This document shows, one piece after another, positions 3,481 through 15,025 of a DNA stretch of 64,000 nucleotides. This DNA comes from Firmicutes bacterium HGW-Firmicutes-2 (GTDB taxonomy: Bacteria > Bacillota > Clostridia > Lachnospirales > Vallitaleaceae). Positions within the stretch are counted from its first letter, which is position 1, and each line of letters opens with the position of its first letter. The notes under the pieces were generated by a model. It was not told where the DNA came from, did no database searches, and saw only the letters and a program-made list of their open reading frames with translations. Made by a program: the position numbers and the translations under genes. Location of the stretch: assembly GCA_002841495.1 (NCBI GenBank), contig PGZV01000019.1, positions 18,935-82,934 on the forward strand. Reading direction: 5' to 3'.

Positions 3481-5076
3481 TTACTCGTCAATTTGGATTT
3501 CAATTCCAGACTTAAATTCCACAATGAAATAGTCATCATAAACCGTTATCTTTTCCAAGAGAGTCCTTACATAATCTTCTTCATATTCAGTCAACTCGCA
3601 AGGCAGATCGTTAAGGAAACGCATCATCTCATCGAGTCGTGTTCTCAGATCCTGTCGGGATGCCTGCTCATTTTGAAGGGCCTGCTTCTCATCACGCAGC
3701 CTTCTAATCTCCATACCAAGCTCATCACCGGTATTCTTAGAATTAACGGTTGCCAATAGCTCAGATGCTTGACCAGTTACCTCACTCTTGATGAGATCCA
3801 GTTCTTTTTCCGTTAAGTCATCATTAAGTGTAAAAACTGCAACCCCCATCAGTTCACCGCCTACTTCTTCAACTGTGAACTCATATTTTGAAACCTTTGC
3901 GTTCAAGCTGTCACGTTCGCTATAGTATTTCATCATCCCCCTTTGTTCCTCGCCTGGCAATCTGCGTTTTTCAATTGCTTTTAGGATTTCCTCTTCGTAT
4001 TTAGTGAGCTCATGCGAAGAGATTTCTTCAGAATCATATGATTTTTCCATGTAGCCATAGTCATTTTCAACATCATAAGTGACGGCTATCAGAGGCATAT
4101 AGAGCTTCATTTGATGAACTCTGTCAGTGTTTTGAATTGTCATACCGAGATTCTCTAGTAGAACATCCTGCAGTTTCATACTCGAACCATAAAAAGTAAT
4201 GTAACCGTTATGGGTCATAGCGCCACATTCATTATTCATTCTTTGCTCGCCATACCTTTTAAAATCAATGTAATCTTCAAGATTTTCATCGTATTCAAAA
4301 TGGCCGGAGTCACATATCATAAATCGCCCATACTCTTCTGCACTTCTAATACCATCAAACAATTGAAATTCATGCATATGATCTAGTAAAGCGTTTATTT
4401 CATACAGGTTTCTTGGTCTGATGTACGCCATTAACTTTTCAAAATATTGAGATTCATGACCACCCATCTCTTTAAAGCGCTTTGAAAAATCATTTAGCCT
4501 GTTTACCTTGGCCGCCATCGATTCATCATTGCTAATGAACTCAATCAACCTATTAGGTAACATATCGCTTTCAAAGGAAAGTTTACATTCTTCGATGTCC
4601 TTAACTTCTAATCGAATCAACGCCTTTTCAATAGAGCTAGAAGGGCACGGCATGTAAATGAACTCCTGATCTCCATGAGCTTCAAAACATAATGTAGCTA
4701 TTTCACTTTGCCAGTAATAACAAGGAAAGTGCCTGCCATCATAAACCTGTTCAGGTTGATTTCTATTTTGATAAAGGACTCCATAAGGTGTTACAACTTT
4801 CATTGGACTGAATTTCATAAGTTCATCAACCACGGCTCTTCCATCGATTGCTTCAAGTTCTTTTGTAGTCGCAGCACCGACCTCATTGAGATATACATCC
4901 CTTCCCACCGCATTCAGATTGCTAAAATCACTGATGACACTATAACAATGGGCATTTGTTGAAACAATTATTCCAAGCTCCTCGCAGATTTTACTAAACT
5001 TTTCTTCTGCAACGGGAAACCAAGCTTCTATAGATTTCTCATCGATGTTGTTTGATTTCTTAATTGTAATGTACAT
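3481..5076 (-). CDS. Chimeric ORF: ICE antirestriction-like protein fused to a serine-recombinase C-terminus
   Basis: I place the start at ATG 5076, which follows GGAGGG by seven bases. The longer reading from 5118 runs back through a terminator hairpin. The 531-residue product appears to have two origins. Residues 1 to about 438 resemble ICE-borne antirestriction/DUF6329-like proteins: an acidic region, a stretch YIDFKRYGEQRMNNECG reminiscent of ArdA repeats, and a C-terminal module with MMKYYSERDSLNAKV and LTEKELDLIKSEVTGQAS. In relatives as I recall them, GQAS is followed by DGWGEGFEQ. Here it is followed by a coiled coil and ELTEYEEDYVRTLLEKITVY, a serine-recombinase tail. The joint, near 3762, looks like a deletion that fused two genes in frame. 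The ORF is open and may be translated, but neither original function is assured. Family naming is from memory. Confidence 0.65.
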   Translation of the reverse strand: MYITIKKSNNIDEKSIEAWFPVAEEKFSKICEELGIIVSTNAHCYSVISDFSNLNAVGRDVYLNEVGAATTKELEAIDGRAVVDELMKFSPMKVVTPYGVLYQNRNQPEQVYDGRHFPCYYWQSEIATLCFEAHGDQEFIYMPCPSSSIEKALIRLEVKDIEECKLSFESDMLPNRLIEFISNDESMAAKVNRLNDFSKRFKEMGGHESQYFEKLMAYIRPRNLYEINALLDHMHEFQLFDGIRSAEEYGRFMICDSGHFEYDENLEDYIDFKRYGEQRMNNECGAMTHNGYITFYGSSMKLQDVLLENLGMTIQNTDRVHQMKLYMPLIAVTYDVENDYGYMEKSYDSEEISSHELTKYEEEILKAIEKRRLPGEEQRGMMKYYSERDSLNAKVSKYEFTVEEVGGELMGVAVFTLNDDLTEKELDLIKSEVTGQASELLATVNSKNTGDELGMEIRRLRDEKQALQNEQASRQDLRTRLDEMMRFLNDLPCELTEYEEDYVRTLLEKITVYDDYFIVEFKSGIEIQIDE

Positions 5077-5107
5077 TTCGTATCCCTCCATTTCATTTTG
5101 TGACAAT

Positions 5108-5147
5108 AAAAAAACCACATCCTACATTTTGATTTTGTAGAAGGTGG
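5108..5147 (-). terminator. Intrinsic terminator between two ICE-type genes
   Basis: A 12-bp stem (11 pairs including one G-U) with a 9-nt loop is followed by seven U residues on the minus strand. It begins two bases after the stop codon at 5149 and ends only 31 nt before the next start at 5076, leaving no room for a promoter in between. Confidence 0.85.
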
Positions 5148-5148
5148 C

Positions 5149-5838
5149 TTAAGTGAACTTTACTTGGAGCGCTGTCGCTCCGTATTTGGCGATGAGTATT
5201 GAATGAATGATTGCTTTAAATGCCTGATCACCTATTAAAAACTTGTCAGCGATTTCATCCATTCTGATATATTCTCTTGCCGTATAGATGGTCTTTGCCA
5301 TTTGATAGATGGCATAGCCATCAGTGTTGATGCCGCTTAAATTCATTTTCTTAAAATCAAAACTATCAGTATAAACATGATCCTTAGCTGCAGACCAGAG
5401 TTTATCATCAGCAGAAAATAGAAATAAAACGGCCAGATGGATTGAACTTCTATTTTCAACTGGAATCTCTTGTAGGCGACAGACAGAACCGAATCTCCCT
5501 CTGTGTGATTGGCTTATGAAAAAATCACCTGCGCAGTTTCTAATCAAATACTCAAGACGACTTTGAAGCCGGTGCGACTTACACTCATGAAAGCAACTTG
5601 AAATGAATCGATCATAGGATGCACCTCTACCATTACTTTTCAGACATCCAATATCTAAATCAAATCTAAATTGCTCTGGTAAGGTTGGCAAGACCTCTTC
5701 TTCTTTTTCTTGTGCATCTATCTTTCCAAATCCGTGTACCACAATTATTCCTCTACCCCTTGGTGAGAAATTTGGAACCAACATCATCAACTGCTCTAGC
5801 TCTTGAAGTTCTGAATCATTCATAAAATACTTTGACAT
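5149..5838 (-). CDS. Conserved ICE-associated protein of unknown function (DUF6075-like C-terminus)
   Basis: The preferred start is ATG 5838, which has GAGGG seven bases upstream. The ATG at 5937 has no ribosome binding site and its extension crosses a terminator hairpin. The 229-residue product has no signal peptide or membrane helix. Its N-terminal part (NDSELQELEQLMMLVPNF) and its C-terminal half (LFLFSADDKLWSAAKDH through MAKTIYTAREY) resemble hypothetical proteins carried by clostridial ICEs. The C-terminal half recalls DUF6075 from memory. No catalytic motif is visible. It stands with the chimeric antirestriction ORF on the same strand, supporting an ICE origin for the block. Confidence 0.55.
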   Translation of the reverse strand: MSKYFMNDSELQELEQLMMLVPNFSPRGRGIIVVHGFGKIDAQEKEEEVLPTLPEQFRFDLDIGCLKSNGRGASYDRFISSCFHECKSHRLQSRLEYLIRNCAGDFFISQSHRGRFGSVCRLQEIPVENRSSIHLAVLFLFSADDKLWSAAKDHVYTDSFDFKKMNLSGINTDGYAIYQMAKTIYTAREYIRMDEIADKFLIGDQAFKAIIHSILIAKYGATALQVKFT

Positions 5839-5870
5839 CTTTTTTCCCTCTCTTTCTGGATTTTGAACAT

Positions 5871-5925
5871 AAAAAAAGAGGCAATGCTCATTGGTCTCTT
5901 CTAATTGACCAGTAAACTTTGCCTC
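5871..5925 (-). terminator. Intrinsic terminator upstream of the ICE-type gene
   Basis: Two stacked stems (GAGGCAA/TTGCCTC outside, TGGTC/GACCA inside, separated by a 7x7 internal loop) are followed by seven U residues on the minus strand. The element sits 32 nt before the start at 5838. It either terminates a lost upstream gene or attenuates this one. Confidence 0.8.
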
Positions 5926-6111
5926 ATAATTATTCATTACTTAAATATTCATTTGTGTTATCAAAACTAATGCAAAACCATCGGTTTTTTCGATTTTAAC
6001 CAATGTCATCTATATTTTAGCCCTTTTTTAGGGGTCAAAAAAGGTCATTTTTTCGTCTGTTTTTTGCCCAAAATTCAGACCAAAACCACTATATGTTGTG
6101 GTCAAACTCTA

Positions 6112-7500
6112 CTATTTATCGCTAGAACCACTACGCGTCATCAGAATTATCGCTTCTACGTGCACACTTTGAGGAAACATGTCGACTGGCTGAACTTGAT
6201 CTACTTTATAACCTTTTTCCGTAAGATACTTAAGGTCTCTAGCTAGTGTTGAGGGGTCACAAGAGACATAGACAATGCGTTTGGGATTGATCTTGACCAT
6301 CGCATCTAGCAGTTCTTCTTCACAGCCTTTTCTTGGTGGGTCCACAACAATAACATCTGCACGCATCTTTAATTCATCATGAAGCCTTGGTATAACTTCT
6401 TCTGCTTTGCCTGTATAAAATTCGACATTGTTTATACCATTAATATCCGCATTATGAAGTGCATCTTCTACTGCCGCTTCAACCACTTCTACACCGATGA
6501 CTTTTTTTGCTTTTTTTGCTAACAATAGGGAAATGCTGCCAATCCCACAAAATACATCCATGACCGTCTCTTCACCGGTTAGTCCTGCAAACTCTATGAC
6601 TTTTGCATAGAGTTTTTCTGTCTGTACCGGATTGACTTGGAAGAAGGACAATGGCGATATGTGGAACTTGACATCATCTATGGTATCTTCAATATGGGTG
6701 TCACCATACACATGAAGCAACTGTTCTCCCATGATGACATTGGTGATTTCTTTGTTGATATTCACACTGATACCGGATATATAATCCAACTTGGTTAGTC
6801 TTGCTATTAGACCTTCTGCTGCTTTTAAGCGTCGACCGTTAATGACCAGTGTGACATGCATAAGCTTTGTGGAATGAGCATGTCTTGTTACAATATGTCT
6901 TAAAAAGCCTTTATGTGTTTCTTCGTTATAGGCGGATATACCGTTTTGTGTCATCCAATCCAAAATAAGGGCTTTGACTTCTTCATTACGCTGATCTTGT
7001 ATATAACAGATGTCCGTTTCTACAATCCTATGACTGCGTTTGGCGTAAAAGCCAATTTTTACACGACCACCTTCTTGCCTAACGGGATATTGGACCTTGT
7101 TACGGTAATAATAGGGCTCATCCATGCCTATTACCGGTTCCACTCGAATATCACTTAATTTCCCTATCCTCTTAATTAATTGGTCGACTTTGTTTTGCTT
7201 AAACTGCAACTGACCCTCATAAGATAAATGCTGGAGTTGACAGCCGCCACACTGGCTTGCTACTTTACATATGGGTATAACTCTATCTGGGGAGGGTACC
7301 TGAATGGACTCAAGCTTCCCAAAACCAAAATTCTTACCGACTTTAACAACCTTAGCAAGAACCGTCTCACCCGGTAAACCGCCATCAATAAACAAAGTAT
7401 AACCTTCCACTTTGCCGATGCCCTCACCGTTCACACCAATATCATCAACCATCATCTCATACACTTCATTTTTTACCACTGGTGCCTTTACTTTCGACAT
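6112..7500 (-). CDS. rlmD: 23S rRNA (uracil-5-)-methyltransferase RlmD/RumA family
   Basis: This SAM-dependent RNA methyltransferase makes 5-methyluridine in 23S rRNA. A TRAM domain covers about residues 1-68. Cys78, Cys84, Cys87 and Cys165 match the 4Fe-4S ligands of RumA, with the CGGCQLQH signature. The Rossmann part carries DVFCGIGSISLL (SAM site), VDPPRKGC, and YVSCDPSTLARDL with the catalytic Cys. The 462-residue length is normal. ATG 7500 follows AGAGGT by seven bases. The 3' end, at the conserved HVE motif, is a known integration hotspot for streptococcal ICEs and prophages (rum/rumA), and the ICE-like debris here begins right behind it. Confidence 0.92.
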   Translation of the reverse strand: MSKVKAPVVKNEVYEMMVDDIGVNGEGIGKVEGYTLFIDGGLPGETVLAKVVKVGKNFGFGKLESIQVPSPDRVIPICKVASQCGGCQLQHLSYEGQLQFKQNKVDQLIKRIGKLSDIRVEPVIGMDEPYYYRNKVQYPVRQEGGRVKIGFYAKRSHRIVETDICYIQDQRNEEVKALILDWMTQNGISAYNEETHKGFLRHIVTRHAHSTKLMHVTLVINGRRLKAAEGLIARLTKLDYISGISVNINKEITNVIMGEQLLHVYGDTHIEDTIDDVKFHISPLSFFQVNPVQTEKLYAKVIEFAGLTGEETVMDVFCGIGSISLLLAKKAKKVIGVEVVEAAVEDALHNADINGINNVEFYTGKAEEVIPRLHDELKMRADVIVVDPPRKGCEEELLDAMVKINPKRIVYVSCDPSTLARDLKYLTEKGYKVDQVQPVDMFPQSVHVEAIILMTRSGSSDK

Positions 7501-7539: not shown

Positions 7540-8481
7540 CTAATATCTGGTTCTTCTTAAGTTGCTTTCAAACATCCTCTGATAACCTAACCAATCATCT
7601 TGCTCACTGGAAGCTTTCATTAAGGTTGTAAATGTTTTCATCTTTGCATCCATATTATCAATATAATGCAGAGCTATGGCTTCAATGAGTTCCGGTTTCT
7701 TTGGTGATCCGTACTCCAATTCACCATGATGGGCAATAATCATATGTTTGAGTAGATTGGCAAGGGTTGGGGGGAACTTAGGAATCTCATCAATTTTTTT
7801 ACTTAACCACTCTATCCCTATGATGATATGCCCAACCAACTGACCTTCATCCGTATATTCAATTATCGGAAACTCCGACAATTCTTTAAGCTTACCAATA
7901 TCATGGAACATACAGCCTGAAAATAGGATGCTTTTGTTTAATACCGGATATTGCTTGGTCATAAAATCACAAAGTCTCAACATATATAATGTGTGTTCTA
8001 ATAAACCACCCATATAGGCATGATGTACGGTTTTTGCCGCTGTATGTGCCTTGAAGCTTTTGGCAAAGGCTTTGTCCTCTACAAAGAAATTGGTGGCTAA
8101 TTGTTTCAGCCAAGGATCGTCCATATCCTCAATGTAACCGACAAATTCTCTATACATTTCTTCCACATCATATTCTGTTGCAGGTATATAGTCTTTAGGA
8201 TCATATTCACCTTCTTGGGCTACACGTACACGCTTAATATTATATTGAATACTGCCTTGGAAGCTTACAACAGTGGCATCAACTTTAATATAATCTCCAG
8301 TGCCAAAACTATTAATACCATCGTTTAGATCCCATATCTTACCATCGCCTACACCCGTTTTGTCCTGTAGTCTAACAGAATAATAGCTCTTACCTGCTCT
8401 TGTTTTTAATACTTGTTTTTCTGCACATAAATATATATCGACGATTTGATCGCCTTCATTCACATCTGCCAAATAACGCAT
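7540..8481 (-). CDS. yhaM: 3'-5' exoribonuclease YhaM family (OB fold plus HD domain)
   Basis: At 313 residues it matches Bacillus YhaM (about 314). Residues 1-90 form an OB-fold nucleic-acid-binding domain. Residues about 150-290 form a metal-dependent HD domain with HHAYMGGLLEHT, CMFHDIGK and IIAHHGELEYG supplying the histidine and aspartate ligands. It is expected to trim RNA, and perhaps DNA, 3' ends in the cytoplasm. It is transcribed toward rlmD with a 39-bp gap, so the two may be cotranscribed. Confidence 0.9.
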   Translation of the reverse strand: MRYLADVNEGDQIVDIYLCAEKQVLKTRAGKSYYSVRLQDKTGVGDGKIWDLNDGINSFGTGDYIKVDATVVSFQGSIQYNIKRVRVAQEGEYDPKDYIPATEYDVEEMYREFVGYIEDMDDPWLKQLATNFFVEDKAFAKSFKAHTAAKTVHHAYMGGLLEHTLYMLRLCDFMTKQYPVLNKSILFSGCMFHDIGKLKELSEFPIIEYTDEGQLVGHIIIGIEWLSKKIDEIPKFPPTLANLLKHMIIAHHGELEYGSPKKPELIEAIALHYIDNMDAKMKTFTTLMKASSEQDDWLGYQRMFESNLRRTRY

Positions 8482-8615
8482 ATGTTTCTCCTTTCAATAT
8501 GTAAGGCTGTTTTGCAATCAGCAAAAAGCATTACTTGTTGCCATTATCACATTATAGCTTATTTTCAAGTGAAGTTAAAGAAAAGAATCGGTGGCCATCC
8601 TCCCGTAAGACAAAA

Positions 8616-8640
8616 TGAAGACCCTAAAAAAGGGTCTTCA
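8616..8640 (-). terminator. Terminator of the DUF692-like gene
   Basis: A 10-bp perfect stem (TGAAGACCCT and complement) around a 5-nt loop lies 10 bases after the stop codon and is followed by TTTTG on the minus strand. The A/T flanks would let it work in both directions. Confidence 0.75.
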
Positions 8641-8649
8641 TGATTATCC

Positions 8650-9432
8650 TCAGAATCTTTTCCTAATCTCTATAAGTTGTTTCTTGATTTCTTCCTTGCT
8701 GGTACGCCAAGAGAAGTCCGAACCGGGCCATCCATATTCCAAAGTTACAATCTCAGGCTTGCATTTATACCTAAGCCAATCTAGTAAATCGTAGTCTCTT
8801 GGTGTTAAAGGTGTATGCATATCTATTAAACCTTTGTCTTCAGTCATCTGAGTTCCTACAAAATGGATTTCTTTGACCTTATTTAAGGGGAGTCTTCTTA
8901 GATAATCATGAACATCCATTTTCAGATGATAGGCTGAGACACTAGCATGAGCTGTATCTAATAAAAGGCCTACATCATGTTTTTCACACATCTCGGTTAT
9001 AAAATCCGGATCTACCGCTTCAGGTTTCACGTAGTGAGGATTATAAAATGGATTATAGTCCATGTTTTCAATGATTAGAGGTACTTCTAAGTGCTCTTTG
9101 AAAATCGTAATCCCTTGATCCAAACGTTGCTTTATATCCATAACCGCATGTAAATCCTTATCATATATAGCAAAATGAACAGCTAAATGTGGGGATTCAT
9201 ATTGATTCAAAATATCATTCATATATTGCCAGTCATTATTACGCACCGGATCGACCATACCAATGTGCTCATGCTTGCCAAAACCATGTATCAAAATTGA
9301 TTTTTTCTTTACAATCTCCTCATGCAAACCTATAAAGGGCTGAAAATAGCCCATCTTAATACAATCCACTTCTACTGCGTCTTCTTCTATCAACACCATC
9401 AATTCTTCTGAATAATTACAACCTAGTTTCAT
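8650..9432 (-). CDS. DUF692/MNIO-like TIM-barrel metalloenzyme
   Basis: A 260-residue TIM barrel whose second half follows the pattern of the DUF692 multinuclear non-heme iron oxidase (MNIO) family: HLAVHFAIYDKD, then a Glu in IIENMDYNP, Asp and His in GLLLDTAHASVSA, His in VKEIHFVGT, Asp and His in LIDMHTP, and Glu in VTLEYG. These are plausible metal ligands along the barrel strands. Characterised MNIOs (MbnB, TglH and others) modify Cys or Asp residues of ribosomal peptides. ATG 9432 follows AAGGTGG. The gene has its own candidate promoter and terminator. Immediately upstream, on the same strand, lies a 43-codon peptide gene. A general sugar-phosphate isomerase/AP-endonuclease-2-like role is the main alternative. 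Substrate unknown. Confidence 0.7.
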   Translation of the reverse strand: MKLGCNYSEELMVLIEEDAVEVDCIKMGYFQPFIGLHEEIVKKKSILIHGFGKHEHIGMVDPVRNNDWQYMNDILNQYESPHLAVHFAIYDKDLHAVMDIKQRLDQGITIFKEHLEVPLIIENMDYNPFYNPHYVKPEAVDPDFITEMCEKHDVGLLLDTAHASVSAYHLKMDVHDYLRRLPLNKVKEIHFVGTQMTEDKGLIDMHTPLTPRDYDLLDWLRYKCKPEIVTLEYGWPGSDFSWRTSKEEIKKQLIEIRKRF

Positions 9433-9505
9433 GATCTCGCCACCTTACTATCTATGGTTAAGACGTCAAAAATAAGCTTCTCTGACTTAACCTTTATATA
9501 GCTTT

Positions 9506-9534
9506 ATTGAAACATTAACAAGCGGTTATGTCAA
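9506..9534 (-). promoter_or_regulatory. Candidate promoter of the DUF692-like gene
   Basis: Minus-strand TTGACA (9529-9534) and TTCAAT (9506-9511) are 17 bp apart. The -35 is perfect and the -10 matches at four of six positions. It begins two bases after the preceding terminator stem-loop's U-tract. Confidence 0.5.
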
Positions 9535-9535
9535 A

Positions 9536-9565
9536 TAAAAACAAAAAGTAGCATTTCTGCCACTT
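9536..9565 (-). terminator. Terminator of the 43-codon peptide gene
   Basis: An 8-bp stem (one G-U pair) closed by a GAAA tetraloop (9546-9565) starts one base after the stop codon and is followed by TTTTTGTTTTT on the minus strand. This makes the small gene a self-contained transcription unit. Confidence 0.8.
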
Positions 9566-9566
9566 A

Positions 9567-9698
9567 TCATCTTTTTGATCCATATAGAATTGTACTTAGT
9601 TTACGAACTAGCTTTGAAAATTTGGATAGTTTTTTTGAATGTTTAATTTCTTCTTTATAGAATGAAGGACATCCATTATTCGTCTTAGTTTCGCTCAT
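9567..9698 (-). CDS. Small 43-residue basic peptide with a single Cys; possible RiPP precursor
   Basis: ATG 9698 has GGAG eight bases upstream, a TATAAT-like box further up and a strong terminator directly after the stop, so it has all the parts of a real small gene. The peptide begins MSETKTNNGCPSFYKEE. It then turns strongly basic with hydrophobics spaced like an amphipathic helix (KKLSKFSKLVRKLSTILY). There is one Cys (residue 10) in NGCP, and no signal peptide. Position, 134 bp upstream of an MNIO-like gene on the same strand, suggests a leader/core substrate. It could instead be an amphipathic antimicrobial or membrane peptide, or a small DNA- or RNA-binding protein. I recognise no family. 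Confidence 0.6.
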   Translation of the reverse strand: MSETKTNNGCPSFYKEEIKHSKKLSKFSKLVRKLSTILYGSKR

Positions 9699-9740
9699 GA
9701 TTCACACTCCAATTATCAAGCTCATTGATTCCTAATCCCT

Positions 9741-9764
9741 ATTATACAACCTGTTTTTGAACAG
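9741..9764 (-). promoter_or_regulatory. -10 box and palindrome upstream of the small peptide gene
   Basis: A perfect TATAAT lies at 9741-9746 (minus strand). Directly upstream is the inverted repeat CTGTTCAAAAACAG (9751-9764), placed in the spacer where a repressor or MerR-like regulator would bind. No good -35 is visible, which fits a regulated promoter. Confidence 0.45.
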
Positions 9765-9967
9765 ATTATGAATAGAACGTTAATAAATTAGCGTTTCTCG
9801 TAAACCCCCTAACTTCCTGCCTTTCAAGGCCTTTTGCATTCATGTTAGTACATATTTAAAGATTTCTGACGGCGTGTCATAAAAAAGTTATGTTAGGAAG
9901 CTTTATAATTATGTCATAATCATGTAAAATATAAGAAAGTATATTCATATATTAAAGGTGGTTCCTT

Positions 9968-12917: not shown

Positions 12918-13601
12918 ATGGAAGCAAAATCAAAAATACTCATTGTTGACGACGACGAAAATATAACCGAACTTATAGCCCTCTATCTAGAAAAAGAAGG
13001 TTACTCAACCAAATCTGTTCACAACGGCAATGACGCAATCCATGTTTTTAAGGCTTTTTCACCTAATTTGGTCATATTGGATCTTATGTTACCTGGTAAG
13101 GATGGCTTTGATGTGTGTAAGGACATACGTCAAGTGAGCAATACACCCATTATTATGCTAACAGCAAAAGGTGAAACTTTTGACAAGATTCTAGGTCTTG
13201 AACTGGGTGCGGATGACTATATGATCAAACCCTTCGATACCAAAGAACTGACTGCAAGGGTTAAGGCTGTTCTTAGACGTTTTACTCCAAAAAGTAATAC
13301 TACCAAACAAATTGCAATGCCCAACCTGACCATCAATCTATCTAATTATACTGTCGTCTATAATGATACAAAGATTGAAATGCCACCAAAAGAATTAGAA
13401 CTTATTTATTTTCTTGCTTCTAACCCAAACCAAGTTTTTACAAGGGAACAGCTCCTTGATCGTATATGGGGTTATGAGTATATTGGTGACACAAGGACCG
13501 TAGATGTTCATATCAAAAGAATTCGTGAAAAAATTAATGAATCAGATGCTTGGGGTATCAAAACCGTTTGGGGCATAGGGTATAAATTCGAGGTGAACTA
13601 A
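12918..13601 (+). CDS. OmpR/PhoB-family response regulator
   Basis: A 227-residue two-domain regulator. The receiver has the acidic pocket (DDD at 11-13), phosphoacceptor Asp55 in LDLMLPGKDG and Lys84 in TAKG. The C-terminal winged helix (about 130-227) has the DNA-contacting region VFTREQLLDRIWG and TRTVDVHIKRIREK. ATG follows GAGGTG. The stop is two bases before the histidine kinase gene, so they form a cognate pair. The signal is not evident. Confidence 0.93.
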   Translation: MEAKSKILIVDDDENITELIALYLEKEGYSTKSVHNGNDAIHVFKAFSPNLVILDLMLPGKDGFDVCKDIRQVSNTPIIMLTAKGETFDKILGLELGADDYMIKPFDTKELTARVKAVLRRFTPKSNTTKQIAMPNLTINLSNYTVVYNDTKIEMPPKELELIYFLASNPNQVFTREQLLDRIWGYEYIGDTRTVDVHIKRIREKINESDAWGIKTVWGIGYKFEVN

Positions 13602-13603
13602 AT

Positions 13604-15025
13604 ATGTTCAAGACATTTACAGGCCGTTTTTTTGCCATCTATGCCATGACCACTTTGGTGATTTTCCTGCTATTATTTGGTGTGCTCACTCAAATCATCT
13701 CTAACTACTTTATTGAAAATCATTACAATATGATGTTAGAAGAAAGCCGAATCTTAAGTGAGCAATTTATAGAAACTTATAAAGCAAGAACTTTAACGGA
13801 CCTTAATTTTACTTATCAATTAATCGCCACCAGTAGGTATATTGATTCTAGAATTATGATTCTGGATGAAAATCATAGGGTTTTTAAAGACACTCAAACC
13901 ACAGGCAAATCTTTGGTCGGTCATAAACTCAACCATCCCATTATCCTTTCTGTCTTTGAAGGTCATCAAATGTCAGAAACCGGTACTTTTGGGGATCTCT
14001 ATGACCAACTGGTACTAACAACGGCCTATCCGATTATTTCCGGTGATCGGATTATGGGTGCTGTTATTATTAATTCTCCCTACCCAACGCTACGAGACAA
14101 TATTAATAACATCTATCAAATGACCCTATTTTCCTTACTGATACTTTTAGCCGCCACCTTTATATCCACATATGTCTACTCAAAAAGTATTACCAATACC
14201 ATCTCAGAGTTAAACGATCGGGTGCAGGCTATTGCTAATGGTGATTTTACAAGTCATATCGTTCTTAGTACCGATAACGAGATTGGACAATTGGCTAACA
14301 ACATCAACCATATGGCCTCTGAACTTGAAAAACTTGAAGATATGCGTAAAGATTTTATTGCCAATATCTCTCATGATTTTAGGTCACCTTTAACTTCCAT
14401 AAAAGGCTTCGTACAAGCCATATTAGATGGCACCATTCCTTTTGAGCGACAAGGCAAATACCTTAATATTGTTCTTGATGAAACGGAACGTCTGACCAAG
14501 CTCACCAACGACATACTCCTACTCACAAAGATGGAGAATAATACTGTACAATTAAATAAGACCCACTATGATCTTCATCAAGATATACGTAAAATTCTTT
14601 TTCAATTTGAACAGAAAATATTGGATAAACGTATTGATTTCACTTTGCTCATCGACCAACAGGAACTTTTTGTATTTGCGGATATGAATCAAATACAACG
14701 TGTATTAACGAATCTCATTGATAACGCTATCAAATTCTGTTCCCCCGGCGACACCATCATCGTTGAAACCACCGTACTATCAGGTAAAGTTGAAGTCAGT
14801 GTTAAAGATTCCGGCCCAGGTATATCCGAAGAAGATATTAAGTACATCTGGGATCGATTTCATAAAGCGGACCGTTCAAGAGGCAAAGACAAAAAAGGCA
14901 TTGGCTTAGGATTGTCTATTGTTAGAGAGATTGTAAAAGCCCATAATGAGTCTATTGATGTATACAGCCAAGAAGGAAAAGGCACAACCTTTGTCTTTAC
15001 CCTACCCTTATCACACCATATATAA
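13604..15025 (+). CDS. Membrane sensor histidine kinase, partner of the preceding regulator
   Basis: 473 residues: transmembrane helix about 8-30, an extracytoplasmic sensor loop of about 140 residues, a second helix about 170-192, then HAMP and HisKA with phosphorylated His257 in NISHDFRSPL. The HATPase domain has the N box NLIDNAIKFC near 370, DSGPGI and GIGLGLSIVRE. It resembles WalK/ResE/PhoR-type kinases without a PAS domain. It should autophosphorylate on His257 and pass the phosphate to Asp55 of the regulator encoded just upstream. Confidence 0.93.
   Translation: MFKTFTGRFFAIYAMTTLVIFLLLFGVLTQIISNYFIENHYNMMLEESRILSEQFIETYKARTLTDLNFTYQLIATSRYIDSRIMILDENHRVFKDTQTTGKSLVGHKLNHPIILSVFEGHQMSETGTFGDLYDQLVLTTAYPIISGDRIMGAVIINSPYPTLRDNINNIYQMTLFSLLILLAATFISTYVYSKSITNTISELNDRVQAIANGDFTSHIVLSTDNEIGQLANNINHMASELEKLEDMRKDFIANISHDFRSPLTSIKGFVQAILDGTIPFERQGKYLNIVLDETERLTKLTNDILLLTKMENNTVQLNKTHYDLHQDIRKILFQFEQKILDKRIDFTLLIDQQELFVFADMNQIQRVLTNLIDNAIKFCSPGDTIIVETTVLSGKVEVSVKDSGPGISEEDIKYIWDRFHKADRSRGKDKKGIGLGLSIVREIVKAHNESIDVYSQEGKGTTFVFTLPLSHHI

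Follow-up and report, generated by a model that had tools for sequence, protein, structure and literature searches.

A gene for a 43-amino acid basic peptide stands directly upstream of a gene for a DUF692-fold TIM-barrel enzyme in the stretch of DNA analyzed here (64,000 nucleotides from Firmicutes bacterium HGW-Firmicutes-2, hereafter the window), and the pairing of the two genes is a genuine association that extends beyond a single genus. The pair is best read as a minimal peptide-enzyme unit, with the peptide probably the substrate or small partner of a DUF692-fold enzyme for which no partner protein was recognized nearby. MNIOs, the enzymes of this fold that act in RiPP biosynthesis, install unusual peptide chemistry with O2, usually together with a partner protein.

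Organization of the peptide-enzyme locus

Both open reading frames lie on the minus strand, as the initial annotation had placed them, and the ribosome-binding site, TATAAT element and tetraloop terminator that it had assigned to the peptide gene are all present. The peptide gene (9567..9698, MSETKTNNGCPSFYKEEIKHSKKLSKFSKLVRKLSTILYGSKR) encodes a core of Y14-x-E16-x-x-K19 and a predicted C-terminal amphipathic helix, which is placed at residues 22-39 by a model of low confidence (mean pLDDT 66) that served for the helix alone. It is preceded by a GGAG ribosome-binding site (9707..9710), which in the form GGAGTG is common to the counterparts in other genera, and by a promoter box at 9741..9772 with the -10 element at 9741-9746. 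The conserved pattern of this box, in the genus of the window and in other genera, is TTCA-N5-TGTTnA-N11-TATAAT, and 5' of the -10 it contains a repeat of 11-bp period, TATTCA-N5-TGTTCA. Directly 3' of the peptide stop codon is a terminator hairpin with a GAAA loop (T1, 9546..9565), which is presumably leaky, and this is followed by the 260-amino acid enzyme gene (8650..9432); no promoter-like site of at least 9/12 was found on the minus strand between T1 and the enzyme start. A second terminator (T2, 8615..8641) lies between the enzyme gene and yhaM, which has a promoter-like site of its own (8551..8578, TTAACT-16-TATAAT) and encodes a YhaM-like 3'-5' exoribonuclease with an HD domain and an OB-fold match below the Pfam cut-off (7540..8481). 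The gene for the 23S rRNA m5U methyltransferase RlmD (6112..7500) comes after yhaM whether or not the DUF692 enzyme gene is present. All of these features are on the minus strand, and a GNAT gene and mutS2 are found to the right of the peptide promoter on the plus strand.

The peptide open reading frame is kept in 4/4 genomes of the window genus, the other three versions being 86-98% identical, and six pairwise comparisons give dN/dS values of 0.03-0.22, which are rough as they come from 129 nt; given this conservation and these ratios, the genus peptide is very probably translated and under purifying selection. Within the genus the ribosome-binding site, box and spacing are constant but for single letters, and Cys10 is constant in all four genomes. 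The T1 loop reads GAGA in the remaining three genomes of the genus, with stem pairing kept in 4/4, and the T2 hairpin is also present in these three, with a weaker T-run in genome G001 (alignment by eye). In the window genus the peptide-enzyme pair is bounded by its own promoter and terminator, and the hexamers of the yhaM promoter-like site are invariant in 4/4 genomes. The peptides have no Pfam or PHROGs family, the one PHROGs match being at chance level (E 0.071, peptide of genome G006), and plasmid and phage searches returned no peptide match.

Allowing one mismatch, the 32-nt promoter box occurs at a single site in the window (0.08 expected). The operator-like palindrome CTGTTTTTGAACAG that the initial annotation had described is indeed present at 9751-9764 (0.10 expected), though it is broken in genome G002 and was not seen in other genera. 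The gene mutS2 is followed by genes for a response regulator of the OmpR type and a HAMP histidine kinase (12918-15022, plus strand), and the repeat in the peptide promoter looks like a candidate site for such a regulator; a repeat of the kind TGTTCA-N5-TGTTCA resembles OmpR-family boxes. A WalR/PhoP-like regulon was considered and set aside, since no genome has more than two exact copies of the box and no regulon is shown by it.

In the case of yhaM, it is the constant downstream neighbor of the DUF692 enzyme gene in 11/11 enzyme-bearing genomes of the family, at a distance of 11 nt in genomes G012, G016 and G019 and with overlapping genes in G006. A role for yhaM as conserved partner of the enzyme was rejected, since yhaM and rlmD are equally joined in the enzyme-less genomes (nine with yhaM found, of 11). 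By this evidence, and because T2 and the yhaM promoter-like site lie between the two genes in the window genus, yhaM stands outside the mechanism; the closure of the pair against yhaM in that genus also makes a role of the peptide for the enzyme more likely than one for yhaM-rlmD.

A partner protein is encoded in most MNIO clusters, according to the available text of a survey (PMC12452194). The neighbors tested here by profile, YhaM, RlmD, GNAT, MutS2, the response regulator, the histidine kinase and a PilZ protein, include no known partner, and neither an ArdA-domain protein nor a 262-amino acid open reading frame is a known partner by profile (DUF2063-like or other). The ArdA (antirestriction) domain belongs to a 545-amino acid open reading frame at 3481-5118 on the minus strand (34.6 bits against a cut-off of 27); together with the 262-amino acid frame beside it (5149-5937), which has no Pfam match, it is possibly a mobile-element remnant. 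Further away, at 194-2679 on the minus strand, two adjoining open reading frames with a hydrolase part and an HMA/E1-E2 part apparently represent one heavy-metal P-type ATPase, divided by a frameshift, a true split or an assembly error.

Peptide and enzyme genes pair across three genera

The DUF692 enzyme is found in 11 of the 22 genomes of the family and the peptide gene in nine, in all nine directly upstream of the enzyme, so that the peptide accompanies the enzyme in 9/11 enzyme-bearing genomes and is seen in 0/11 enzyme-less ones. These nine belong to three genera. The initial annotation had named as a check whether the two genes stay neighbors across genomes, and in these genera they do, with the peptide found solely with the enzyme (9/9). 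The best match of the family peptide profile in the 11 enzyme-less genomes has an E-value of 0.085; this profile was trained on the same peptides, and E-values on these are circular. The layout of promoter, Shine-Dalgarno sequence, short basic open reading frame, terminator and enzyme recurs in 8/8 sequences examined, with peptide net charges of +5 to +8 and a distance from peptide stop to enzyme ATG that ranges from 37 nt (G019) to 145 nt. In the two enzyme-bearing genomes without peptide or box, G010 and G014, a tRNA-Thr gene precedes the enzyme gene. Genome G006 has a second enzyme copy (C196; L011, L024), which stands after an unrelated gene and has no peptide or yhaM beside it, as far as the upstream gap shows.

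Direct peptide searches gave nothing convincing beyond the genus, and among eight loci outside it one alone, the region 5' of the G019 enzyme gene, gave a local alignment better than shuffled sequence (score 43, reached by 2% of shuffles); at the other seven 20-76% of shuffles scored as high. The resulting view of the peptide as an orphan of one genus was overturned by the intergenic regions, the promoter box and the terminators. The exact box pattern has 13 sites in the 22 family genomes, nine of which are upstream of the peptide gene in its nine genomes, and the reversed pattern has zero; as the pattern was drawn from these nine sites, the informative part is the scarcity of other sites (four). 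A noncircular comparison, in which the box of the window genus was slid along 250 nt of sequence 5' of each counterpart, with p values from dinucleotide shuffles, gave 24/32 positions for both G006 and G009 (p 0.0005 each), 22/32 for G019 (p 0.0015) and 21/32 for G012 (p 0.0055), and no match upstream of the enzyme in the peptide-less genomes G014 (p 0.07) and G010 (p 0.91). In G009, as in the genus, 42 nt separate the -10 from the ATG.

Beyond the nine genomes of the family, a search of 392 genomes across the order returned 16 peptide matches in 14 genomes (E 6.9e-5 to 0.01), which lie mostly within long open reading frames or across stop codons and are taken as chance. Among the matches listed for relatives outside the family (to E ~0.06) there was no peptide counterpart, and the reading of small open reading frames outside the family covered six loci.

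Peptide counterparts share a Y-x-E-x-x-K core

The short basic open reading frames of the other genera encode 37 amino acids in G019, G012 and G016, 50 in G006 and 45 in G009, the G016 frame being the same as that of G012. Each is preceded by GGAGTG and followed by a hairpin with a T-run and then by the enzyme. Residues common across genera are Y14, E16 and K19, in addition to a basic and mostly amphipathic C-terminus: for the genus peptide and those of G012/G019 the hydrophobic moment is higher than in shuffled sequences (p 0.014-0.033), with no excess in G006 (p 0.11) or G009 (p 0.65). The initial annotation had singled out Cys10 as the candidate modified residue and had itself named its nonconservation as evidence to the contrary; this is what was found, as Cys10 is constant within the genus alone, Cys is elsewhere than position 10 in G012, G016 and G019, and it is absent in G006 and G009 (2/5 peptide types). 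Beyond the genus, therefore, the precursor-like peptide contains no conserved modifiable Cys.

Leave-one-group-out profiles were run over 871 segments of nine loci. With the pair omitted, the G019 peptide ranked first (E 4e-4) and the G012 peptide second (E 0.023) among non-training segments; the genus peptide ranked first at E 0.09 (next 0.11), the G006 peptide third at E 0.033 (behind 0.0024 and 0.014), and the G009 peptide fell outside the top nine. The profiles lend moderate support to G019, weak support to G012, G006 and the genus, and none to G009; with the training sequences left out, the peptides thus show weak sequence homology, and the promoter is a stronger argument than the profiles. 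Between the G012 and G019 peptides dN is 0.12 and dS 0.31, indicating weaker protein constraint.

A DUF692-fold enzyme of the D-x-x-H branch

The initial annotation had described a DUF692-like TIM barrel with the ligand pattern of that family and had raised the sugar-isomerase family as the alternative assignment. The enzyme scores 65.6 bits with Pfam PF05114 (cut-off 25) and 24.3 bits with the xylose-isomerase-like PF01261, under its cut-off of 31.1; the best NCBIfam model, ApyH, gives 77.7/400 bits, and all five matched models stay below their cut-offs. It is therefore a PF05114 member that belongs to none of the matched equivalogs. All ten enzyme relatives tested exceed the PF05114 cut-off, with L042 also exceeding that of PF01261. 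The AlphaFold model (pLDDT 93.9) agrees with this placement, as its first seven fold matches by Z are entries of MbnB (Z 23.0, rmsd 2.7 A over 234 residues), TglH (21.8) and 3BWW (19.8), with the best sugar epimerase-like entry at 18.4, and Foldseek likewise has MbnB, TglH and 3BWW entries on top.

The ligand pattern consists of H49, H86, E122, D159, H162, H190, D204, H206 and E232. Across an alignment of 34 rows that contains the window enzyme, H86, E122, D159, H162, H190, H206 and E232 are invariant and H49 nearly so, and D204 is not invariant. In the available text of PMC10880893, the Fe1/Fe2 ligands of TglH are His71, His107, Glu151, Asp184, His216 and Glu258, and a third iron is also bound by Asn187, Asp229 and His231. 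All of the Fe1/Fe2 ligands are matched here, by H49, H86, E122, D159, H190 and E232, as assigned by conserved order and, in the second half, also by the TglH alignment. The third site differs in that the position of TglH Asn187 is His162 in the window enzyme, while Asp229 and His231 of TglH have their counterparts. This His is found in 34/34 rows and in 12 further noncanonical matches, whereas Asn is found in the 6/6 typical MNIOs fetched, which come from one Bacillota genome and from five plasmid-borne genes, two of the latter without annotation in the stretch. In HvfB, the predicted third-site ligand is N175, and substitutions at that site hinder activity (available text of PMC13419390). A quick tree of 46 rows splits the six Asn-type members from the other forty with an SH-aLRT of 100, and the His type is the sole kind of PF05114 protein in the enzyme-bearing genomes of the family. 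These alignments and the tree mark the enzyme as a D-x-x-H form of the DUF692 fold, on a separate branch.

Enzyme relatives outside the family

More distant relatives of the enzyme occur in other settings. In 8/8 tested Chloroflexota loci (L034, L035, L036, L038, L040, L041, L044 and L045, chosen for a long upstream open reading frame and mostly Anaerolineaceae), the D-x-x-H DUF692 gene comes right after a gene for an ABC_membrane/ABC_tran protein; Chloroflexota loci L037, L042, L043, L048 and L050 have other neighbors. At L118:5996-11747 the DUF692-fold gene comes after a Bmp-type (PnrA-like) ABC importer set and closes an apparent operon; the other genes of this operon encode a Bmp-type binding protein, an ABC ATPase and two more products, which hints at a nucleoside-like substrate. 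The D-x-x-H gene is one to three genes from NeuB in L051 and L054, and a PF05114 match therefore does not always denote a RiPP cluster. Given these unrelated contexts, substrates within the branch may be varied and perhaps include small molecules. An open reading frame antisense to mutS2 in L022 had no profile match.

Discussion

The reading that we favor, tentatively but as a quite possible one, is that of a two-gene peptide-enzyme unit of Vallitaleaceae-type Clostridia, in which a leaky T1 yields an excess of peptide and the enzyme acts on the peptide. The dedicated promoter would drive transcription of the short basic peptide gene, T1 at the stop codon would end most transcripts and leave peptide mRNA in excess, and read-through at T1 would give a smaller amount of the partnerless DUF692-fold metalloenzyme. 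The enzyme would then act on the peptide, which it could recognize or target at the conserved (S/P)(F/L)Y-x-E-x-x-K, and the basic amphipathic helix at the C-terminus may be the functional end of the peptide. The chemistry would in general not be one of Cys. The order of precursor, terminator and enzyme would provide more peptide than enzyme and is a known RiPP arrangement, and a literature search on this order found no paper on it. The analysis shows the two genes and their conserved pairing, the promoter box, the terminators at sequence level, the predicted fold of the enzyme and the conservation of its metal-site residues; from there on we infer read-through, physical contact between the two products and a role of the peptide as substrate (or obligate small partner).

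A less probable but credible alternative is that the peptide is an independent small basic protein, for example one that binds membranes or RNA, which shares locus and promoter with an enzyme acting on a small molecule, in the manner of its sugar-isomerase or endonuclease IV cousins. The importer operon at L118, the eight Chloroflexota ABC loci and the NeuB neighbors at L051 and L054 place relatives of the enzyme in small-molecule contexts, and the His at the third metal site, presumably as in endonuclease IV, and the obligate-anaerobe type species also fit such a role. It is more difficult to reconcile with the occurrence of the peptide solely beside the enzyme (9/9), with the closed unit in the window genus, and with an enzyme fold and profile nearer to MNIOs than to isomerases.

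Unlikely, though a serious rival since the computed hairpin overlaps the stop codon in 7/8 sequences, is a leader-peptide attenuator, in which the short open reading frame senses translation: a ribosome at the stop codon would cover the 5' arm of the terminator and allow read-through to the enzyme (and to yhaM-rlmD where these form one operon), while stalled or absent translation would result in termination. In those seven sequences the hairpin starts 5-15 nt before the stop codon ends, and the short gap to the enzyme ATG (37-145 nt) and the close or overlapping enzyme and yhaM genes of G012, G016, G019 and G006 would suit such a device. In the window genus, however, the stop-overlapping 32-nt hairpin is an extension of a core that begins just past the stop, and the G009 hairpin starts 17 nt after it. 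The genus peptide is moreover under purifying selection at the protein level, and what is kept across genera is Y-x-E-x-x-K and not a run of one regulatory codon. An Rfam search found no element reaching, or near, its cut-off.

Very improbable is the initial proposal of a classical MNIO RiPP system with O2-driven oxidation of Cys10, as DUF692 membership, the precursor-enzyme order and the constancy of Cys10 in 4/4 genus genomes are set against a Cys that is absent or shifted in other peptide types, no partner protein recognized among the profile-tested neighbors, a third-site His and an obligate-anaerobe type species; chemistry at Cys10 is unlikely.

The system that we favor has much in common with the MNIOs (PF05114; MbnB, TglH, HvfB/BufB, ChrH and ApyH), including the TIM-barrel fold, all of the metal ligands of sites 1 and 2, and a small upstream open reading frame, which as a precursor-like gene accompanies the enzyme in 9/11 enzyme-bearing genomes. 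It departs from them in the third-site residue (TglH Asn187 and HvfB N175 versus His162), in having no recognized partner, in its separate branch (SH-aLRT 100) and in the obligate-anaerobe type species. The xylose-isomerase-like/endonuclease IV superfamily (PF01261) has the same barrel, but with a profile score below cut-off and lower fold Z; the D-x-x-H third-metal motif presumably matches the ligands of endonuclease IV. MovX, the MNIO of a methanobactin-like RiPP system of Vibrio, requires no partner protein; it carries a winged-helix domain in addition and has a C-terminal Asn as its site of action, according to the available text of PMC12452194, while the window enzyme is a bare barrel of 260 amino acids. 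In the available portions of PMC12452194, PMC10880893, PMC10214503, PMC13419390 and PMC6647913, the peptide-enzyme pair is not described.

A relative with 90% enzyme identity is Petrocella sp. FN5, and Petrocella belongs to the Vallitaleaceae, Lachnospirales (NCBI taxonomy); its type species is an obligate anaerobe according to the available text of PMC6647913. TglHI and MbnB use O2 (available text of PMC10880893 and PMC13419390), and the chemistry in Petrocella may therefore differ, or traces of O2 may be used. Indeed, the third-metal His together with an obligately anaerobic type species suggests that the reaction may be O2-independent. The full proposition, that in obligate anaerobes a partnerless DUF692-fold enzyme with a D-x-x-H metal site modifies a cationic peptide without O2 and independently of Cys, is doubtful as a whole and is offered as speculation.

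A pair in an anaerobe with a third-site His, no recognized partner and no conserved Cys raises the question of whether this fold can act on peptides free of O2, and the system is small (43 and 260 amino acids) and can be tested by coexpression. If O2-free and Cys-independent modification were true, peptide maturation of this kind would be new to the DUF692 fold. If instead the peptide is not a substrate, a PF05114 match would not imply RiPP chemistry, and this would affect genome mining for MNIOs, which were collected by the PF05114 profile in PMC12452194, as its available text states.
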